From positions 62,001 to 126,000 of the IMG/VR virus record IMGVR_UViG_3300034104_005002: a stretch of 64,000 nucleotides of DNA; one strand, 5' to 3'. Shown piece by piece: positions 3,668 through 62,626 of this stretch. The translations under genes were made by a program, and so were the position numbers. Position 1 is the stretch's first letter, and every line of letters starts with the position of its first letter. The stretch comes from a virus. The notes under the pieces were generated by a model. The model saw nothing but the letters and a program-made list of their open reading frames with translations, made no database searches and had not been told where the DNA came from.

Positions 3668-4924
3668 TTAATTTTTACAATTCCAGCGGCGTCTTGCTTT
3701 ACAAATTGGTTTATCTTGAGTTTTAGAGCAACTAATATTATGCATTTCTTGCTGACCTTTGGATCTTGTGCAATAATTAGTCCTTCTCTGCATTCTTTTA
3801 CCAGTTGGATTTTTTTCTGTAACAGCAGTTTGTAATTTAGAACCTGGATTTTCTCTACGGTAAGTATTTACGGCTTTCTGACTCATTCCATCAACTCTGT
3901 CTTTTTTATTAACTTTCTGCCAGTCTTCCTTAACCTGAACAATCGGAGTACTAGAATCCATCTCACAAGGAACATAAGAAATTACTCTAGCTTCTGGATA
4001 AATCTGATTTACCGCATAAGCAATCTCATTTCTTTTTGGAGTTCCAAGTTGTGGGAAGAACATTTGAACCGATAGATGCTTTCCTCGCCAATTGACCAAA
4101 ACTCTAAGAAGCTGACCAGTTTGCATTGGAAGGCGAGTTGTCGCTTCACTCACCGGAACACAATTAGGAACTTTTTTACCCCTTTTCTTTTTAAATCCGA
4201 CCATTTCATAACCTTTCCAACAAGGATCCTCATCTTTGGTCATGTATTTCTTAGCCTCTTCCATCTCAACACTTTTTTCCATCTTATTGAGATGGGTATA
4301 ATAATCAGGAATTTCTTCTAAGTGATGAAGAGCAATAATTTCGGCCTCCCCCTTATCAGTGGTGTGCTCCATTTCAATTTTGATTCCTTTTTTTAATTGC
4401 TTTTCAAGGTATTCAACAGATACTTTATGTTTTTTTGCAATTTTATCTAAGGATTTTGTTTTCTTGATATCTATTCCAGGCTTATCGCCTAGCATTTCAG
4501 AAAGGATTTTATCTACAAGAGATGTTTCTTCTTTGACAATCGGTGGAAGTTGAGTTCCCAATTTTCCTTTGGCCACTTTAGCTTCATTAGGATTTGGAGA
4601 TCGTGTTAGTCCTTCTATTTTTTTTGTCCTGTTTGCGCTAGATTTTACTTTTTCATGCTTTTCTTTATTAATAGTGAATGAAGTATTCTCTTCCATTTTT
4701 ACATCAGAAGCCAAATAATCAGCAATAATATCCAAATAATCACTCGATTTTGTGAGTTTCATCTGCACCCAGGCTGGAAGTTGCATATCCGGTTTTTTAA
4801 TAATCTTCCGAAGTTTTTCTAAAGATTGCTCTATTTTATCCATCTCCACTTTAACCATATACCCTTCATCATCTAATTTTTTTCCTGACTGAATTTCTTT
4901 ATGGTCTTCTGAAAGATTTTTCAT
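3668..4924 (-). CDS. Conserved cyanophage protein between gp16 and gp17 (DUF5661/DUF6321-like parts)
   Basis: This 418-aa protein of unknown function overlaps the gp16 stop by ATGA, so it is translationally coupled to the terminase genes. It is modular. Residues 1-75 are charged and helical. Residues about 137-216 (DKIAKKHKVSVEYLEKQLKKG and EIIALHHLEEIPDYY) resemble DUF5661. Residues 234-258 hold a DPCWKGYEMVG...NCVPV motif common in cyanophage structural proteins. Residues about 270-320 form a short beta-rich part, and residues 340-418 are a Lys/Arg/Cys-rich DUF6321-like end (RRENPGSKLQTAVTEKNP, ICKARRRWNC). The domain names are from memory of these families. The Cys-rich basic end suggests nucleic-acid or metal binding, and the position suggests a role near packaging. 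Confidence 0.75.
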   Translation of the reverse strand: MKNLSEDHKEIQSGKKLDDEGYMVKVEMDKIEQSLEKLRKIIKKPDMQLPAWVQMKLTKSSDYLDIIADYLASDVKMEENTSFTINKEKHEKVKSSANRTKKIEGLTRSPNPNEAKVAKGKLGTQLPPIVKEETSLVDKILSEMLGDKPGIDIKKTKSLDKIAKKHKVSVEYLEKQLKKGIKIEMEHTTDKGEAEIIALHHLEEIPDYYTHLNKMEKSVEMEEAKKYMTKDEDPCWKGYEMVGFKKKRGKKVPNCVPVSEATTRLPMQTGQLLRVLVNWRGKHLSVQMFFPQLGTPKRNEIAYAVNQIYPEARVISYVPCEMDSSTPIVQVKEDWQKVNKKDRVDGMSQKAVNTYRRENPGSKLQTAVTEKNPTGKRMQRRTNYCTRSKGQQEMHNISCSKTQDKPICKARRRWNCKN

Positions 4925-8904: not shown

Positions 8905-11900
8905 TTAAATCCTCGGTTTAATGGTTGCGATTGCCCTGAGTTGGCGAATCAGAGGGGGTGTCGCCTGGTTACTACTTGCCATGACAATTTTGATGGCAAA
9001 TGCATTGAAATCAGGAAGATCATCCACTGAATATTCATAATCCTTAAATGTTCTATCTGAAGTTTCTTTGACAAACGAATCTGAAGATCCATCATTCTTA
9101 GAAACATCAATAACTCTCTTAATTCCAAACCCATCGACTACATAATTTTTATAACCAGGAAATAGTTCAAAGGAAGGATTAACATTGGATTCATCATCTC
9201 GGAAAATTTGATAAAGAACCCGAACATCATTTAAATCATTGCGACTTGCACTTAAGATCACCTTGATCGCATTGGCGGGGATTTTCAGACGAGTTGGTTT
9301 TGAAATGTAGATAGCCTCATGAGAATCATTATCTCCTCTCACTAAAGTATCGGTTGAATACGTTGCTAATTCGCCAATTCCATTTGAATTATTAATCAAG
9401 TTTGATGTTAGAGCAACAGAGGTATTAATTGTATCAACAACCGGAGAAACCCTAGTATCATCGGTTGTAAATAGCATTTCAAAAGACAATGATCTATTTC
9501 CAGGAGAGTTAGTAATAAATCTTTCTTCATTTACAGAAGAGCAAATTAATTTTGGCTCCGTGAAATAGGTTTGCGTATCAAGGGGAATAATTTCAAATCC
9601 TCTGTCTATAAATGGCTTTTCATTTCCACCAACACTAGAACCAGTGAAGGTCCTAATTTTGGTTGAAATATTTGTTTTTGCCGGAATAATACTTGCAATA
9701 TTTGGAGTAATTGATTCGTACTGGATGTTATTAGAAATAACAATTCCGCTTTGTCCACCTTGTACATGCTGCCTGAAATAGAGATTGTTTTCTCTGTTAG
9801 TTCCAATTGATTTTCCATCAAAATCGGTATCACTCATGTCAATCTTAATGAAGTAACTATTCAAATCAATCGGGAATTTTCCAGTATTGGCTGAATCTAC
9901 TTCCGCAAAATTGTGAATTTTATTAATTCTTCTCAGTGATACTCCATTAAATTCATACTTATAAACAAAAGTATTATTCGCATATGCAATTGCCTGAGTT
10001 CCATCAACTGCTCTTGTAACACCAGTTAATGTATTCCCGGAAATTGCAGTGTATCTGATGACCTCATTACCGATAATTGCATAACCAGGATTTATTGGAC
10101 TTACTGTCACCCCTTCAAAAATATTGAATCCAGCTGATGATTGAAGTGGAATTGTATTTTGGGTTGATGTAATTTCAGATGATGTTGTAGAATTAGTATC
10201 AGAATTAAGTGGTCTAAAATCATTAATTTCTACATAATTTTCAAATGAATGCATACCATGATTTTGTTGATAGACCTTCATATGAAGACCATCAAAGAAT
10301 TGATCCTCGGTAATGGAAGTTACTGTAATACCTGCTCCAATTGCACTTGATATTCCAGAAGAATTTATAAAGTTGACCGTTGATACCCCAACATTAAAGG
10401 TTCCTTGTACTTCATCGAGAACAAATGTGTTAGGCGATGCAATATTGGTAACGGTAATTCGACCATTAATTCCTAGGCCTTGTCCAAGAGGTGGAATCAG
10501 AAGAGAATCGCCCACCTTATAACCAATCCCACCATTAGTAATATTAATAGAACCAATAACACTATTAGCTACACCAACAGTTGCAACTGCACCTAGACCA
10601 AATCCAGTCTCTGTAACCAGATTAACATTAGTAAAGGTCCCATTAGTATAACCAAAACCAACATTGCTTATGGTTGTTCCGGCTCCTGCGCCAGTTGTGA
10701 TTCTACCAGAAATTCCAATTAGAGTAGCCGAAGCACTACCCTGAGTAATAGTGACACCTTCTTGAACCACAGAAGAATAACCAGTTGAACCTAGACCAAC
10801 AATAATTCTCTTTGTTAGGAATTCAAATTGATTAGGGCCGGTGACGGTTTTCTTACCATTTCCAATATCAAGTTTTGGATTAAAGAATTTTAAAATACCC
10901 TCATTTTTAAACTGTGCCCTATAAATTTTGTATTTTAGATCCTCCAATTGAGATGGTGTCCACACAGTTCCATTCTGGGACTTAAACATACTTCCCAGTG
11001 TAGGTTGTTTGGTTATTCTAATTCTACTTTGAATATCATTTTGACCAAGCTCAGTAACAAATACCCTATAATTTGGGCTGTTTGAAATCAAAACAATTGC
11101 ATATTCTGCTGAAGATTCGCTTGCAATTGGCGCCTGTCTTACTGTTTGTTGTTGAGGACCTTGTAAATAAACAGGAGATGGGAATGTAAATTTGGTTGGA
11201 ACTGAGCCATTAATAGAAAGATTAATCTGATCCGGAGTAAGAGTAACCTCAGAGAAAGGTACTACAATATTACTAGGAACCCCAGCAAGAAGTGGTCTAA
11301 TTTGAAGAGTTACTGGAACATTATCCGAATCACTAGTTTCAAAATAGACATCAACAGAAGTTAGGAATACACCTGTATCTTCAAACACATAGAATGATTG
11401 GGCCAGAGGATCATAAGGTTGTTGAATTTGAACAGAACTAGGGACAACATTTTGAGAAACTGTCGTTGTATTGGTTGTTACATTAGTAATAGTTGTTGTA
11501 TTAATATTTCTTGGTGGAATAATTTTAATGTTTCTTGTAGTGAGAATATTTGTCTCTGCAATATTAGTTATAGCACTAGAAGTAAATTCAGCCTCGGCAC
11601 TACTTTCATTGATTCTTGAATTAGGAATAAATTCGACTAATTTTATTTGATCAAGTGAAGGAGTATCAATTAATATAAAATTATTTTCACCATTAATCCA
11701 ACGGGGATTTCCTCTTACATTTGGATCAGGAACATTAAACGAACCAATTAGGGTTCCGCTATTGTCAGAAAGAAGTCTAATTCGTCGAATGGTAGCAACT
11801 GCACCGGAGGTTCTTCCAATAATTCTCATTCTTGGAGCAACCTGCCCAAAAAATCGAGTCTCTGATGCAAGTTCCATAGATCTAGTATCTACATTAAGAA

Positions 11901-34381: not shown

Positions 34382-34513
34382 TTAGACCTCCTCAATTTCA
34401 ATGTCTTCTTCGTTTACTTTATCGTCCATGGCCAATTCTAAAAGAATTTTAGTGATCTCCTCGTCAGAGATGTTTTTATAGATTGGTCTTCCTTTATATA
34501 GGATGTTTATCAT
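34382..34513 (-). CDS. Small acidic protein (43 aa)
   Basis: The start overlaps the HNH stop codon (ATGA) and the stop abuts the next ATG, so it is coupled on both sides. The product starts MINILYKGRPIYKNISDEEI and has an acidic end (EEDIEIEEV). This small fold recurs in cyanophages as proteins of unknown function. Confidence 0.6.
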   Translation of the reverse strand: MINILYKGRPIYKNISDEEITKILLELAMDDKVNEEDIEIEEV

Positions 34514-35661
34514 AGTTTGGTGATTTTTACAATATTTTTGTGTTTATGTTGCTTTCCTTGAATCATAGACCATAGAGAACCCCTTGAATATCCTCTTTCT
34601 CTGCAAAACATATTCAGATTCACAAAAATTTCTTTTGTTTCATCAACATAGGTTACCTCATATTGTTTCGCAACATAGTACATAGTTTCTGGATCTCCAC
34701 CTTTTGCAGAATTAGCACTTGATGTCATCCATTGAAGATTGGACGGATGATTATTTAATTTATTCCAGTCTATGTGATCAACAGTATCAAATTCATCGGG
34801 GTTTGAATTTTCAACAAGTTGTTTTGCAACGAGTCTGTGAACCTTTTGGATGATCTTCTTCTCACCGGGAAGTTTCATGTTTAATTGATAATATCCAGTC
34901 TTATGAACATGTTGAGATGTTTCTCTAACAAAGTTCTCTGATAGAACCATTTCGTTTTTAACCGGTTTCCATTTACTAAAGATTCTTACTTGTTCTGAGG
35001 GATCATCTTTTTTATAAACAATATAATACCCAGGCCAATCATCTAGTTCAACAGTATCATAACCAGAAAGATCAATTTTTAATTCTTCTTTTTTCCTAGA
35101 ACGGCCCTTTATATTCCTTTCAATTTCATTAAAGGCAATAATTCCATTATATTCTAGAATTTCTCCTTTACGAAGTTTATATATGGACTCCTCTGAAAGG
35201 TTGTTCTTTTCTAGAAACTCAAGAAATCCTGTTACAATTTCTTTACGTCCATCTAGGTAAACGACTTCAAATTGTTTCGTTTTTCCCTTGGCCCGATTAA
35301 TGTTTACGGCAAAGAGTTTATAGTCATTGTCTGAAACCCATTTTAGGTTCGTTGGATGGCAATTATAAATGTTGTTGTCTTTATGAATGACTCTATTATA
35401 ATTTCTTGGATTATCAATCAGGTAGGATGCAACAAGAGTATCTAAGTAGACTCTCACCTTTTTACCCATGGTTGCGATAGTGACGTATAGTCGGTCCCTA
35501 TCGTCTGCGGATTTTAAGGGTCTTGAGTACGTTAAATCGATGACCGCAGGAGTCTGTCCGGTCTTTCTCCAGTTACTATGAATTGTTACAGGAACAGATG
35601 GATCATTCTCGTCATATGAGAAGTAGTAGCCATCGTGTTCTTTTATGCGAATTTTGTTCAT
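34510..35661 (-). CDS. HNH homing endonuclease with duplicated NUMOD4-HNH-NUMOD1 units
   Basis: This free-standing homing-type nuclease comes in two tandem units. In the longer reading frame from 35742, unit 1 has VIHKDNNIYNCHPTNLKWV (119-136) followed by a NUMOD1-like helix pair (158-205). Unit 2 has VDHIDWNKLNNHPSNLQW (321-338) followed by VTYVDETKEIFVNLNMF (about 363-379). I chose the ATG at 35661 (383 aa) because the frame's first codon, a TTG, is the -35 box of a consensus promoter and the next ATG is in its -10 box, so neither would be on the transcript. The start remains uncertain: AAGGAG lies 25 bp upstream of it. Confidence 0.82.
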   Translation of the reverse strand: MNKIRIKEHDGYYFSYDENDPSVPVTIHSNWRKTGQTPAVIDLTYSRPLKSADDRDRLYVTIATMGKKVRVYLDTLVASYLIDNPRNYNRVIHKDNNIYNCHPTNLKWVSDNDYKLFAVNINRAKGKTKQFEVVYLDGRKEIVTGFLEFLEKNNLSEESIYKLRKGEILEYNGIIAFNEIERNIKGRSRKKEELKIDLSGYDTVELDDWPGYYIVYKKDDPSEQVRIFSKWKPVKNEMVLSENFVRETSQHVHKTGYYQLNMKLPGEKKIIQKVHRLVAKQLVENSNPDEFDTVDHIDWNKLNNHPSNLQWMTSSANSAKGGDPETMYYVAKQYEVTYVDETKEIFVNLNMFCRERGYSRGSLWSMIQGKQHKHKNIVKITKL

Positions 35662-35701
35662 GTCTATATAATATGGATTTACAAATCTCCTTCTTGCGGA
35701 A

Positions 35702-35742
35702 AGAGACCTGGACATTATAGCCCAGGTCTCTAGATTTGTCAA
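35702..35742 (-). promoter_or_regulatory. Consensus sigma70 promoter embedded in a 10-bp dyad
   Basis: On the minus strand a TTGACA (35737-35742) is followed after 17 bp by TATAAT (35714-35719), a perfect match to the bacterial consensus. The -10 box lies in the 10-bp loop of a perfect inverted repeat, AGAGACCTGG (35702-35711) and CCAGGTCTCT (35722-35731). The dyad would suit a repressor bound over the -10 box, or a hairpin at the very 5' end of the transcript. It drives the HNH operon. Confidence 0.75.
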
Positions 35743-58383: not shown

Positions 58384-58662
58384 TCAGAAGTTAAAGGTGT
58401 TTCCGTTTGAGGTGATAGAAATTACACGATTGACATCAAAAGACCGCCAGGCTTTTTCACCTTGATCTTTTGCAATCTTAAAATCCCTCACGCGAATAAT
58501 GTCAGGGTTGGTGGAATTAGTGCCGGTTCCTACAATTTCTTGGCGATCACGCGGGTTAAATTGGATCTTGCGGGATTCGCCGTTCTTTTTTACAAATTCT
58601 ACAGAGATGATAGTGGAACCAGATTCCTTAAGAAATTCACGGATAGTTTCTGCGCGGTTCAT
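58384..58662 (-). CDS. Small beta-rich protein (92 aa)
   Basis: It begins MNRAETIREFLKESGSTIIS and continues VEFVKKNGESRKIQFNPRDR, similar to DUF2693-type phage proteins (weak). The end (RVISITSNGNTFNF) completes a small beta fold. Function unknown. Confidence 0.55.
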   Translation of the reverse strand: MNRAETIREFLKESGSTIISVEFVKKNGESRKIQFNPRDRQEIVGTGTNSTNPDIIRVRDFKIAKDQGEKAWRSFDVNRVISITSNGNTFNF

Positions 58663-58761: not shown

Positions 58762-59094
58762 TTATCGGCCCATCGCAGACCGAATCTTCATTTCAATCCG
58801 TTCATCGAGTTTGGCCAGGATATAGTTCTCAAGCTGAGAATCCAGACTATTTTTGATGTCAGTTGAAACCATTTCAGTCATTGCCGGAATCTGATAGCGT
58901 TTTAGATAATTAGTCATTCTCTTTGAGAATGGGTCAGACTTAAAGTATTCCTCGACTGCATTATTCATCGAGGTTGTATCTGGTTTGGCGGTCTGAATTT
59001 CTTCATAAAGATAACGAAGAGCATTCAACAGATTAGAAAATTCGACCAGTTGATCGTTCACGTTCACTAGAGCCGGGACAGTGGTTGTTTCCAT
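58762..59094 (-). CDS. Helical protein in the Ubl-conjugation cluster (110 aa)
   Basis: This all-helical protein begins METTTVPALVNVNDQLVEFS and ends LAKLDERIEMKIRSAMGR. It is the last member of the cluster, six bases after the E1-like gene. I do not recognise it; it could be a target or an adaptor of the system. The start is TTTATTATG, the same leader type as the other cluster genes. Confidence 0.6.
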   Translation of the reverse strand: METTTVPALVNVNDQLVEFSNLLNALRYLYEEIQTAKPDTTSMNNAVEEYFKSDPFSKRMTNYLKRYQIPAMTEMVSTDIKNSLDSQLENYILAKLDERIEMKIRSAMGR

Positions 59095-59100
59095 AATAAA

Positions 59101-59814
59101 TCAAGAAATAGAGGTGGACAGAGTGCGGCCATTAAAAAACATTCCGCTTTGTTGAGGATTAAGCACCCCATCAAGGAAGTTTTGAATCACCGAGAGAGTA
59201 ATCGCGGCAGCAAAGAAATTTGCCGAGATCAATTGAGGCCTAGAAGGTGTACTCAGAGCACAGGATCCCTTTTCTGGGATGCTGTCAATAGGGTTACTGA
59301 TGTTGGGATAAGCAATACTAGGATCCATTCCAACACGTTCACCATTACATTTACCAAACCAAAGAGTCTGGCCCTGTACTGATTCCGTGCCGTCACTATT
59401 ACCTGGGGTAATAAAGAAAAAATCTTTATCAGAACAGGTAGTAGAGATTGCCTTTAGAACATCATGTCGAGTTGCATCATTGTCAACAGAACAAACAATC
59501 AGAGGAGACTCTGCTCGCTCCAGAAGAGGAATGAAAGAAGTCATTGAAATAAAATCTTCCTTGCAGTCAACATTTTCTAGACCTTGAAAGGCACAGAAGT
59601 CTACCATTGCGCGGGCCTTGTTCATGCCAATTTGTGATGGGCCTACAATTTGACGAGTTTGGTTGTGCTCTTCAAATTCATCACCATCAATAAAAACTAC
59701 TTTGGCGTTTTCTGTGGCCGGATGGTGCGCAACAAGACGGGCAATAGGTGATGCAAGATAGCCGCCAGTGCCACCTACTCCTACAATAAAAACGGTGTCA
59801 GGATTGAAATTCAT
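59101..59814 (-). CDS. E1/ThiF-like adenylating enzyme
   Basis: This 237-aa enzyme is predicted to bind ATP and activate the C-terminus of a ubiquitin-like protein. The N-terminus has the Rossmann ATP loop VGVGGTGGYLAS (12-23), then FIDGDEFEEHNQTRQ with the conserved Asp, Asn and Arg, GMNKARA (Lys), and SVDNDATRHDV (the Asp of the adenylation site). A candidate catalytic Cys is in EKGSCALSTPSRPQLISANF near the end, followed by AAAITLSVIQNF. That end resembles the PRTRC-system ThiF. It lies between the PRTRC-B-like gene and the 110-aa gene. Confidence 0.82.
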   Translation of the reverse strand: MNFNPDTVFIVGVGGTGGYLASPIARLVAHHPATENAKVVFIDGDEFEEHNQTRQIVGPSQIGMNKARAMVDFCAFQGLENVDCKEDFISMTSFIPLLERAESPLIVCSVDNDATRHDVLKAISTTCSDKDFFFITPGNSDGTESVQGQTLWFGKCNGERVGMDPSIAYPNISNPIDSIPEKGSCALSTPSRPQLISANFFAAAITLSVIQNFLDGVLNPQQSGMFFNGRTLSTSIS

Positions 59815-59883
59815 GATTTAAGGTGAACTACTTTGCAAGTATAAAGGAGAAATGGGAGTGAGAAGCGAGGAGATGGACAGTTT

Positions 59884-60924
59884 TCAGGCTGTCACAAAGG
59901 ATTCATCTAGCTGGCCAATTAGGTATCCTTCAGAAGAAATATACCATTTGCGGCCCACCGCATCTTCTTGAGTAGTGTAACCAAAATAGACCGAATCTTC
60001 TTTTTGAATTGTAGAAGTTTTTGCTGGAATGATCATTACATGCGGAGCTTCTGGAATTGGAGTAAATCCGGCCATCAACATCGTAAAGAATGCCTGAACG
60101 TCCTGATCTGCATCAATCATAATCAGACAATCATAACCAGAACACAAGAATTTATGATCCGATTTATGGTAATTACCACATTCTATAGAATCTTTTAGGG
60201 CATTGATATTTTCTGTAAATCTAGCGAGCCTAAGAAGATCATTATTGAAATTTGACTGAAAGTAGGAACTAACAATTCCCCGAAGATTCGCCGGAGAACT
60301 CACTTGCCCCCAACAGATTTTTCCATATATGTATCCAGTTTCATCTCTCTGGTCTGAACTGTAAACATTTGCCGCAGCAAATGAAGATGTCTGATAAATT
60401 ACACCCTCTTCATAATAACCGGCCCGGAGGTGGGCATTATCTCCTTGGTAAACTTTTTTAAAACGAGGTGGGGTTCCTTTATAATTCAGTTTAATATCAA
60501 AGACCATATTGGAAATGGAGATTTTCTTTTCCTCTTTGGGTTTAGATTCATGGCCTTCCATACAGTGTTGGCCTGTATAACCATCCCACCATACGTCACA
60601 TTCTGTTTGATTTTCCCTGGCATTCCTAAAGAATTCTGTTGACTCGTTTTCATCATAGCTGCCGTCTTCTGCAAACACATTTGGATATGTGGTTTTCAGG
60701 TATTGAGTGGTTCGTCGCGGGCAATACTGGCAGTGATTGCTATAAAAATCTTCATATTCGTTATAATTTGGATCAACTTCGCCAAATTCAGAATAATTTT
60801 CAGGCATCCAGGCCCTAATTGTAAGGGCCTGGGAATCTACCCGATAGGAAATAAATTCCGCTTCAGAGGGAAGCAAGTGAGTGTTTACTTTGGCCGGATT
60901 TGTGGGAAAAATAGGATTCATCAT
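59884..60924 (-). CDS. PRTRC-B-like / putative E2-type protein (346 aa)
   Basis: The centre (ANVYSSDQRDETGYIYGKIC, then WGQVSSPANLRGIVSSYF) follows the PRTRC-B pattern NVy...G.iCwG......l...yF.S.F. The Cys at 204 (KICWG) is the candidate active-site Cys of an E2-like conjugating domain. An N-terminal Cys/His group (NHCQYCPRR, 63-71) may bind metal, and GYDCLIMIDADQDVQAFFTM lies in the last third. It overlaps the JAB gene by four bases (ATGA), so the two products are made together. The identification rests on motif and neighbourhood. Confidence 0.68.
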   Translation of the reverse strand: MMNPIFPTNPAKVNTHLLPSEAEFISYRVDSQALTIRAWMPENYSEFGEVDPNYNEYEDFYSNHCQYCPRRTTQYLKTTYPNVFAEDGSYDENESTEFFRNARENQTECDVWWDGYTGQHCMEGHESKPKEEKKISISNMVFDIKLNYKGTPPRFKKVYQGDNAHLRAGYYEEGVIYQTSSFAAANVYSSDQRDETGYIYGKICWGQVSSPANLRGIVSSYFQSNFNNDLLRLARFTENINALKDSIECGNYHKSDHKFLCSGYDCLIMIDADQDVQAFFTMLMAGFTPIPEAPHVMIIPAKTSTIQKEDSVYFGYTTQEDAVGRKWYISSEGYLIGQLDESFVTA

Positions 60925-61871
60925 ACCTCCGCAAATTGGTGATCTTCGATGTAAACAGAAAGCAAGGCCATAAGTTCTTCAATCTCTTCTGGGTTTCCTT
61001 TGTTTTGTTTTAGGAAATCCTCGATTACGTCTTCAATTTGATGGAGTTTAATAGACTCTTTTTCAGGTGTTTGATAGCCCTGAAATTCATCCCAAAGCTC
61101 ACTAAAATCTCCATTGATATTGTCCTTAAAACCAAATGGAGACTTGTAATTGTAACCATTCCAATTGGTTCTTTGATTGGAGGAGTATTTGGTGACTACT
61201 GGTTTAGAATAATCAACATAATCAAGAACGTCTTCATGGAAAGTAAACCCTTCAAGTGGTTCGGTTTCAATAAGATCTTTATGGGGGATCTTAAAGCGCC
61301 GACCATTTGCCACAACAGAAGAAGCAATAGCGTAAGTCCGATCTTTGGCACTAATGGATCCAACTACAATATGAATTCCAGGATCTCCCAGTTCATACTT
61401 ATCATCGGTGCCCGAAAAGAAGGCTTGCATAGTGTTGTGGCTGTGGGAAGATCCAACAGGAATCCAGCCAATCGGAGGATAACTTGTAATGACTTCTCCA
61501 GTCTCAATGTCAATAGCATCATCAAATCTATCAACCCTCACAGATGTGGCAGATACTTTCTGTTTGGGAACAAGAATCCGATAAAGAGAGGGATCTTCTT
61601 CGCTGCGAAGAATACGAACCGAAACTTCTACATTAGAAGGAACTTTTTCAATAAAGTGAAAACAAAGCTGCACCCACCGTTGCCACAAATCCGCCGGGAT
61701 TTTGTGAATGTCTTCATTAAGAGTGAATGATTCTAGATCTTCTTTGGAAATAATTACGTTGGCATCTGGATCATCGGTGGGGCGAATGTACGTTCCCCAA
61801 CCACCAGTATAAAGTTCAAAACATCCATGCTTGGCGGTTCGTAGAATCTTTGGGATTTCTTGTGTTTCCAT
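60921..61871 (-). CDS. JAB/JAMM metalloprotease (PRTRC-A-like)
   Basis: This 316-aa protein is predicted to remove or trim ubiquitin-like tags. Residues 143-156 read HSHNTMQAFFSGTD, an exact H-x-H-x7-S-x2-D JAMM motif (H143, H145, S153, D156) after a beta-strand segment GWIPVGSS; an upstream Glu (about E91-E92) could complete the site. About 140 residues precede this core. An intrinsic terminator lies just before its start (61892-61917), so expression may depend on readthrough from the Ubl gene. Confidence 0.85.
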   Translation of the reverse strand: METQEIPKILRTAKHGCFELYTGGWGTYIRPTDDPDANVIISKEDLESFTLNEDIHKIPADLWQRWVQLCFHFIEKVPSNVEVSVRILRSEEDPSLYRILVPKQKVSATSVRVDRFDDAIDIETGEVITSYPPIGWIPVGSSHSHNTMQAFFSGTDDKYELGDPGIHIVVGSISAKDRTYAIASSVVANGRRFKIPHKDLIETEPLEGFTFHEDVLDYVDYSKPVVTKYSSNQRTNWNGYNYKSPFGFKDNINGDFSELWDEFQGYQTPEKESIKLHQIEDVIEDFLKQNKGNPEEIEELMALLSVYIEDHQFAEV

Positions 61872-62236
61872 AATAAAGAGAAGAAGTTTACAAAAAAGGC
61901 CCTTGTTTCAGGGCCTTTGTGGTTTTTGGACTGTATCAGCCGATAGATTTTTGCTAACTTGCGTTAACAATGCACAAGTAATTACTTACTTGAGGGGCTA
62001 TCTCCCAAAGCCTCAAGAATTCTTGAGACGCTGTTGTTTTTGTGTTTTAAGTACCAACTAGCTTCCAGAGGGCTCAACTAGCCTGGATTTTGTTTATAGG
62101 ATTTTTATAGTTAACTTGGCTCTCGTCAACTGTTGAATTTTACTTCAACAAATCTATTTAATAAAGTAAAAACCTATTGATTATAGGATTTTATTTGTTA
62201 GCTAATGTTTATTTTTGTTAATAAAACACTAACTGT
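61872..62236. other. Structured non-coding region between Ubl and JAB genes
   Basis: No convincing gene lies in these 365 bp. It contains an intrinsic terminator at 61892-61917, the 16-bp palindrome CTCAAGAATTCTTGAG (about 62015-62030), a 14-bp CAAGTAATTACTTG palindrome (about 61974-61987), a GTTGAATTTTACTTCAAC hairpin and CCTAT...ATAGG followed by T residues on the minus strand (near 62170-62190). GCTAGTTG repeats occur twice. It may be a regulatory RNA or a remnant of inserted DNA. Confidence 0.5.
61892..61917 (-). terminator. Intrinsic terminator/attenuator before the JAB gene
   Basis: The minus strand has AAGGCCC/GGGCCTT around TGAAACAA, followed by six T residues, about 20 bp before the ATG at 61871. 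There is no room for a promoter between it and the gene, so it either limits or regulates expression of JAB, E2-like and E1-like genes. Confidence 0.8.
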
Positions 62237-62503
62237 TTATGAACCCTTGCTTTCGCTTGTGATAGCACCACGCACGGTTTCACCGGGCCGAGGCTGAGTG
62301 TCCGAAGGGACAGATTCGCCATTGATCACATAGGTAGTGATTCGGGCCACATCTACACCAAGACTAGAGCCATATTCAGCAAAGAGTTGTGAAACAGACT
62401 TGCCGCGAGCATTTTCAAAAGGAACTTGCACGCTTTCGGTGTTCACGGTAAGGACAACCGGAAGGCTGGTGTCCATGGTACGAACGTTTTGGAGAAATTG
62501 CAT
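62237..62503 (-). CDS. Ubiquitin-like (beta-grasp) protein
   Basis: This 88-aa protein is predicted to be a tag. From the second Met (residue 10) the pattern is beta-beta-alpha-beta-beta: LPVVLTVNTESVQVPF, an alpha region VSQLFAEYGSSLG, ITTYVINGESVP and a last strand ETVRGAITSESKGS. The end is KGS, so a Gly could be exposed by removal of the last Ser, which a JAB protease might do. It opens the minus-strand cluster that continues with JAB, PRTRC-B-like and E1-like genes. The short length and order match the PRTRC-C role. Confidence 0.7.
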   Translation of the reverse strand: MQFLQNVRTMDTSLPVVLTVNTESVQVPFENARGKSVSQLFAEYGSSLGVDVARITTYVINGESVPSDTQPRPGETVRGAITSESKGS

Positions 62504-62626
62504 AATAAAGTAAAAGAGGTAAACGACAGTTGGTTTGTTGTGGTGTGAGGTGTCCCCCTCACCGACCTTTATAAGATAACAGGGGCTGGAGGGCTTTTTG
62601 GCGCCCTTGGGCCAGTTTGAGGAGTG

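Follow-up and report, generated by a model that had tools for sequence, protein, structure and literature searches.

Clusters of type 6d, described by Iyer, Burroughs and Aravind in 2006 from beta- and delta/epsilon-proteobacteria, Bacillus, Anabaena and Bacteroides, encode a ubiquitin-like protein (Ubl), a JAB protease, an E1, an E2-like protein and an alpha-helical protein, and their E2s carry a conserved cysteine together with an absolutely conserved histidine downstream of it (PMC1779556). The same Ubl/E1/E2/JAB logic is found in Bil, Bub and the cyclic oligonucleotide-based antiphage signaling systems (CBASS) with Cap2/Cap3 (PMC11354881, PMC13373217, PMC10097602); Bil and CBASS are antiviral systems of the host, and Bub is a putative one. 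In phages, a Ubl (TAPI) and a JAB protein (TAPK) are known from lambdoid and T1 tails (PMC1779556).

Here, we analysed a virus-borne cassette with the same five kinds of part as type 6d. It lies in a stretch of 64,000 nucleotides (hereafter, the window) that comprises positions 62,001 to 126,000 of the 161 kb IMG/VR virus record IMGVR_UViG_3300034104_005002. The cassette occupies positions 58762-62503 of the window on the minus strand and encodes, in this order, a Ubl modifier (62237-62503, 88 aa), a JAB/JAMM metalloprotease (60921-61871, 316 aa), an E2-like protein (59884-60924, 346 aa), an E1/ThiF-like adenylating enzyme (59101-59814, 237 aa) and a small helical protein (58762-59094, 110 aa). 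All five open reading frames, with the order and positions given in the preliminary description of this DNA, are present in the sequence. The comparison with type 6d is based on its published description, and in it the helical proteins correspond in kind. We consider it probable that the cassette is a viral system for Ubl conjugation and deconjugation, remotely PRTRC-like (type 6d of Iyer et al.) and equipped with a divergent E2.

Proteins of the cassette

The Ubl of the window ends with ESKGS, where K86 and G87 (G87 codon 62243-62245) are invariant and Ser88 is variable or absent in the relatives. The tails in the nine aligned rows are KGS, KG, KG, KGF, KGVY, KG, KGLG, KG and KG; in the eight distinct sequences, ESKG or ENKG either closes the protein, with the glycine as last residue (four sequences), or precedes S, F, VY or LG. 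The conserved C-terminal glycine of type 6d Ubls is thus found here as an invariant KG with zero to two residues behind it. The proposal that the Ubl ends in KGS and has its serine removed holds in that ESKGS is present and the tails fit a substrate for trimming by JAB, but the serine is only one of several variable tails. A comparison of the tails, those of Bacillota included, provides the strongest argument that KG may be the mature end of the Ubl, which would be freed by the JAB protease. In the Bacillota counterparts introduced below KG is shared: tandem Ubls are joined by VKG followed by M (KLEB27-3 gp199) or by TKG (plasmids), KKG stands at the stop, and in Ubl-JAB fusions SKG or KKG is followed by the JAB domain in a single polypeptide. 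One of these genes (KLEB27-3 gp199; L025, 751-1458) consists of four near-identical tandem Ubl units that end with VKG, a polyubiquitin-like phage gene (Prok_Ub, 5e-27).

Sequence searches with the cyanophage Ubls gave only weak beta-grasp matches (Pfam Ub-Mut7C, 0.0038; ThiS, 0.0062 for the Ubl of the related locus L004). An AlphaFold model of the window Ubl had a mean confidence (pLDDT) of 79.7, and its comparison with the PDB using Foldseek gave a best E-value of 2.3e-3 at a probability of about 1.0, with TM scores of 0.46-0.60; nearly all of the top matches were of the TGS, SUMO, ISG15, NEDD8 or ubiquitin type. The Ubl is therefore predicted to have the beta-grasp fold, as the preliminary description had expected.

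The JAB protein contains the anticipated H-x-H-x7-S-x2-D motif as H143-S-H145-x7-S153-x2-D156 (HSHNTMQAFFSGTD, 61404-61445, minus strand), and H143, H145, S153 and D156 are invariant in eight sequences. Its match to Prok-JAB (3.6e-5) was below the threshold, and that to PRTRC_A reached 24.7 bits (E-value 1.5e-5), short of the cut-off of 101.8 bits. The JAB proteins of the Bacillota cassettes carry the same JAMM motif, and hhalign linked them to the cyanophage family with a probability of 98.8 and an E-value of 4e-17.

The E1-like enzyme is a single ThiF domain of 237 aa, without a rhodanese-type domain. It matched Pfam ThiF above the gathering threshold (2.1e-8), and its best NCBIfam model was PRTRC_ThiF (TIGR03736), with 46.4 bits and an E-value of 3e-12, below the cut-off of 144.75 bits. 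Our alignment of 14 sequences covers cyanophages and Bacillota plasmids as well as a Bacillus phage and a contig of a faecal phage, and in it G12, G14, G15, G17, D43, D45, N51, Q55, K66, D111, N112 and C185 are invariant, so that the features of the E1 superfamily (GxGGxG, at 59764-59781 on the minus strand, the ATP/Mg residues and a catalytic cysteine) are all present. The candidate catalytic C185 (codon 59260-59262, minus strand) is kept in 11 of 11 cyanophages and, with the Bacillota sequences, in 14 of 14. When the profile of the 14 rows was compared with solved structures, UBA5 was the best match, and the E1s of NEDD8, SUMO and ubiquitin were also found. UBA5 is a compact E1 with its cysteine within the adenylation domain. 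The PADLOC E1-E2 and BilD models were matched weakly; among the models of Bil, Bub and CBASS, the compact single-domain enzyme of the window finds only such weak matches.

The E2-like protein was the most difficult to assign. It had no meaningful direct match in Pfam, PHROGs or NCBIfam, and none to PF14460. The cysteine of its KICWG stretch, pointed out in the preliminary description, is Cys204 (ICWG; codon 60313-60315, minus strand), a candidate catalytic residue. Cys204-Trp205 and four further cysteines, C65xxC68...C109...C121 (60562-60732, minus strand), are invariant in 11 of 11 cyanophage sequences, and this invariance of C65, C68, C109 and C121 suggests a zinc site, which is missing from the E2_D-type proteins of Bacillota. 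An hhalign comparison of the family (seven rows) with nine proteins from Bacillota-type cassettes gave a probability of 89%, an E-value of 2.4e-6 and a score of 49, compared with 25 for the best of 200 column shuffles and a background score for the reversed profile. Cys204 was aligned with the CWG cysteine of the Bacillota-type proteins, and the S-x-FN-x-DL stretch behind it was aligned too. Five of the nine relatives match PF14460 Prok-E2_D (four above the cut-off), and four match PRTRC_B weakly, with 18-51 bits.

Some results weigh against the proposed conjugation cassette. For the E2-like protein, AlphaFold gave an uncertain model, with a pLDDT of 70 overall and below 50 around Cys204. This model matched no E2 in the PDB or in BFVD, the latter being uninformative. 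In 11 sequences, the segment from C204 to the FNNDL stretch contains no conserved histidine (scattered histidines occur in L001, L037 and L039), so that the conserved histidine of the type 6d E2s has no counterpart; the E2_D rows of Bacillota also lack a conserved histidine downstream of the cysteine. Finally, the profile comparison of the cyanophage Ubls with those of Bacillota gave 1.3%, within the range of the shuffles, and thus no link, for which reason the assignment of the Ubl is based on its fold, its tail and its context. Since the model is poor at Cys204 and resembles no E2 and the histidine is missing, we assign the E2-like protein with moderate confidence; the PRTRC-B likeness that had been proposed for it agrees with the profile link to Prok-E2_D and PRTRC-B-type proteins, cysteine on cysteine, but an E2 fold was not recovered in the structure model. 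A Tupanvirus E2, considered as a structural match to this model, was rejected because its E-value of 2.8 is at chance level.

Conservation and relatives of the cassette

The order Ubl-JAB-E2-E1-helical is common to about 10 distinct phage lineages in IMG/VR, the window included, where the genes of the relatives were called with local hidden Markov models. It is kept at all loci that are not cut by contig ends (L001-L004, L016/L034, L035, L036 and L037/L039), and L015/L038 carry the E2-E1-helical part in the same order. The E1s of the relatives are 61-81% identical to that of the window, and the cassette proteins among the relatives share roughly 40-86% identity. In all cassette genes, synonymous changes outnumber nonsynonymous ones, with ratios (pN/pS) mostly of 0.16-0.56, and the genes are under purifying selection; E1 is the most constrained (0.18-0.36), and the helical gene is the least, its ratio rising to 0.89 between the most distant relatives. 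Recurrence in the same order in about 10 lineages, together with these ratios, indicates that the five open reading frames are real genes and not chance. The helical protein, which had no meaningful family match in Pfam, PHROGs or NCBIfam, is small and diverges fast, and its gene follows E1 at all loci. Each of three records that were searched in full (161, 258 and 284 kb) contains one Ubl and one E1.

The virus itself has a terminase, neck and baseplate wedge proteins of the T4 type, in agreement with its earlier designation as a T4-type cyanophage. Judged by gp6 (baseplate wedge), Synechococcus phage B23 is the nearest isolate, at 80% identity, with other cyanomyoviruses next, and the gene that follows the cassette (58384-58662) is matched, among annotated phages, only in Synechococcus phages. 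In the contig of a related phage (L036, 2624-2882), a cyanobacterial-type transfer-messenger RNA (tmRNA; RF01851, 104.8 bits) is encoded close to the cassette. The cyanophage markers psbA and psbD were sought in the record and are absent; the designation is kept nevertheless, because of the virion genes, the B23-like gp6, the neighbouring gene of Synechococcus phages and the tmRNA of the relative. The cultured phage B23 has this neighbouring gene without a match to E1 or E2 and appears to lack the cassette, which is therefore accessory. A DNA-level search of the window region against annotated phages gave no match, and a tblastn search of phages with the E2-like protein found nothing. Genome contigs were scanned twice; no relative was confirmed in the first scan, and those of the second were all from Alicyclobacillus and of the Bacillota type. 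We found no report of such cassettes in cyanophages in the open-access library searched, and one may exist elsewhere.

Parallel cassettes are present in Bacillus phage vB_BauM_KLEB27-3 (gp194-gp199) and on the Bacillota plasmids pN497-ZHONG, pAD3, pTHECO01 and pMU3262, which are 110-240 kb in size. They likewise encode Ubls that end in KG, whether free, in tandem or as JAB fusions, a Cys-bearing protein of the Prok-E2_D type, a JAB with HSHxxM and an E1 with the same invariant residues. In contrast to the cyanophage cassettes, they often have a poly-Ubl or a Ubl-JAB fusion, their E1s are only 23-27% identical, their Ubls cannot be aligned by profile to the cyanophage Ubl, and their helical extras are different ones that end with acidic-DFI. 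Further divergent JAB-E1 loci were found in the IMG/VR contigs L040-L048. Given these loci and the cultured KLEB27-3, carriage by phages may extend beyond cyanophages. In four of these divergent viral contigs (L040, L043, L047 and L048), an E2_D-like domain is part of proteins of 777-860 aa near or next to JAB-E1, and a second ThiF-like open reading frame is located downstream.

A PRTRC cassette comprises PRTRC_A (JAB), PRTRC_B (E2), PRTRC_C (Ubl) and PRTRC_ThiF, besides a ParB-related protein. Among the NCBIfam models, those of PRTRC are the best matches of both E1 and JAB, but the scores are far below the curated cut-offs (46 vs 145 bits for E1 and 25 vs 102 bits for JAB). PRTRC_B and PRTRC_C gave no direct hmmscan match, and TIGR03737 was not found in the genome, in a search made without a positive control. 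ParB_N was absent from the three phage records G000, G002 and G003, of which G000 may be a fragment, while the positive control was found in 10 of 14 genomes. Furthermore, the E2-like protein of the window is longer than in PRTRC and has the extra invariant four-cysteine site. Of the suggested PRTRC kinship, the relatedness of E1 and JAB is retained on the evidence of profiles, but it is remote, all scores are below the cut-offs and no ParB was found. Judged by these comparisons, the cassette is PRTRC-like and not a member of PRTRC, most simply described as a divergent relative of type 6d that would work like it.

Proposed function and alternatives

We infer the chemical steps, the targets and the purpose of the cassette as follows. 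The Ubl, made from its own terminator-closed transcription unit, could outnumber the enzymes. JAB would cut off the tail of zero to two residues, exposing ...ESKG-COOH, and might cut conjugates as well. The compact E1 would use ATP to adenylate the C-terminal glycine of the Ubl and then bind it as a thioester on C185, from which Cys204 of the E2-like protein would accept it and pass it to target proteins. The putative four-cysteine zinc site possibly binds E1 or substrates, and the helical protein would be an accessory, perhaps a substrate adaptor. The cassette would act in the infected cyanobacterium, most likely on host proteins, in takeover of the host or counter-defence, which we consider more likely than plasmid-like maintenance. 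A structural role like that of TAPI/TAPK is less likely, because the cassette is located among small accessory genes, distant from the tail cluster. TAPI and TAPK have no E1 or E2 beside them. We see an even chance that a group of large cyanobacterial T4-type phages possesses self-sufficient Ubl conjugation with an E2 subfamily of its own (catalytic ICWG cysteine, no conserved histidine, invariant four-cysteine zinc-like site) and tags proteins covalently with it during infection. Work on Ubl conjugation in bacteria has mostly dealt with actual or putative defence of the host (Bil, CBASS and Bub), and a complete virus-borne kit would reverse the direction: the phage may tag proteins of the host or its defence, as eukaryotic viruses exploit ubiquitin. 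The compact five-gene set, with just one Ubl and one E1 in each genome, also makes the uncharacterised logic of type 6d/PRTRC testable.

The weak Ubl matches to ThiS and Ub-Mut7C and the match of E1 to ThiF models could also indicate a sulfur carrier, in which a ThiS/MoaD-like Ubl is activated by E1 and its thiocarboxylate serves to thiolate a protein, a tRNA or a small molecule, the task of JAB is confined to maturing the Ubl, and the Cys-bearing protein is a sulfurtransferase. Sulfur-assimilation clusters of ThiS/MoaD, JAB and E1 are known (PMC1779556), and the E2 fold was not recovered from the structure model. We regard this explanation as unlikely: the E2-like protein is linked by profile to Prok-E2_D, the best NCBIfam model of E1 is PRTRC_ThiF, the solved structures nearest to the E1 family are those of UBA5 and further E1s of protein conjugation, and no rhodanese-type partner was noticed beside the cassette, though no systematic search was made.

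Conjugation by the phage itself would not be needed if JAB and a competing Ubl/E1 served to disarm Bil, type II CBASS Cap2/Cap3 or Bub of the host by deconjugation or as a decoy. These host systems attach Ubls or cGAS-like enzymes by E1/E2/JAB chemistry (PMC10097602; Bil and Bub in PMC13373217), and the E1 matches of the window to the PADLOC E1-E2 and BilD models would agree with such a role. An intact E1 with a Cys-bearing partner, both under purifying selection, exceeds the needs of a decoy, however, and no Bil- or CBASS-like similarity of the Ubl was detected, which makes this role quite unlikely. Least plausible, and in our opinion very improbable, is a plasmid-derived, PRTRC-like module that aids persistence or partition of the genome, as in pseudolysogeny; the parallel cassettes on the large Bacillota plasmids speak for it, and the virulent T4-type virion genes and the lack of ParB_N in the three phage records speak against it.

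Gene spacing, control signals and inserted elements

The hairpin AAAGGCCCT-gaaaca-AGGGCCTTT followed by TTT (61895-61918, minus strand), located between the Ubl and JAB genes, resembles an intrinsic terminator; a scan of the sequence listed it on the plus strand. Folding and comparison of the loci revealed a stable hairpin at this place in nine of nine, each with its own, unrelated sequence, and a T-rich tail in about seven. As differing hairpins occupy the same place downstream of the Ubl gene in nine loci, the element, previously described as an attenuator before JAB, more probably terminates the Ubl transcript. Together with the close spacing of the enzyme genes, the hairpin suggests that the Ubl gene is a unit of its own, with the enzymes following.

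The predicted four-base overlap of the JAB stop and the E2-like start is exact (ATGA, 60921-60924, minus strand) and would allow translational coupling. The distance between these genes is -4 in the window, -1 in L004 and +2 in L001/L002, and in most loci the genes overlap or are 2-17 nt apart; E1 and the helical gene are separated by 2-7 nt in five loci. A GGAGG just precedes the E2-like start, while the other cassette genes have no obvious Shine-Dalgarno sequence. TTTATTATG spans the start codons of the Ubl (62501-62509), JAB (61869-61877) and helical (59092-59100) genes on the minus strand. This start context recurs in L001 and L004, and the total of four occurrences in the window is not unusual (2.1 expected).

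The JAB active-site motif is interrupted by group I introns (Rfam RF00028) in L001 (4046-4286; about 4056-4347 by the splice rule) and L002 (4078-4318). In L001, the intron splits JAB between HSH and NTM, the exon ending with T and the intron with G, as group I splicing predicts. Free-standing open reading frames that resemble homing endonucleases (YIYKITFEEVPYYYYGVHKEK, NUMOD-like repeats) are located between or near cassette genes in L016 (5877-6764 and 9865-10863), L004 (8701-9366) and L015 (7207-8112), and an HNH endonuclease-like protein (phrog_59) is encoded elsewhere in the window (34510-35742). In L036, a 42-aa fragment that repeats the E1 C-terminus (9708-9836) follows the intact E1 gene at a distance of about 1 kb, which suggests duplication or gene conversion.

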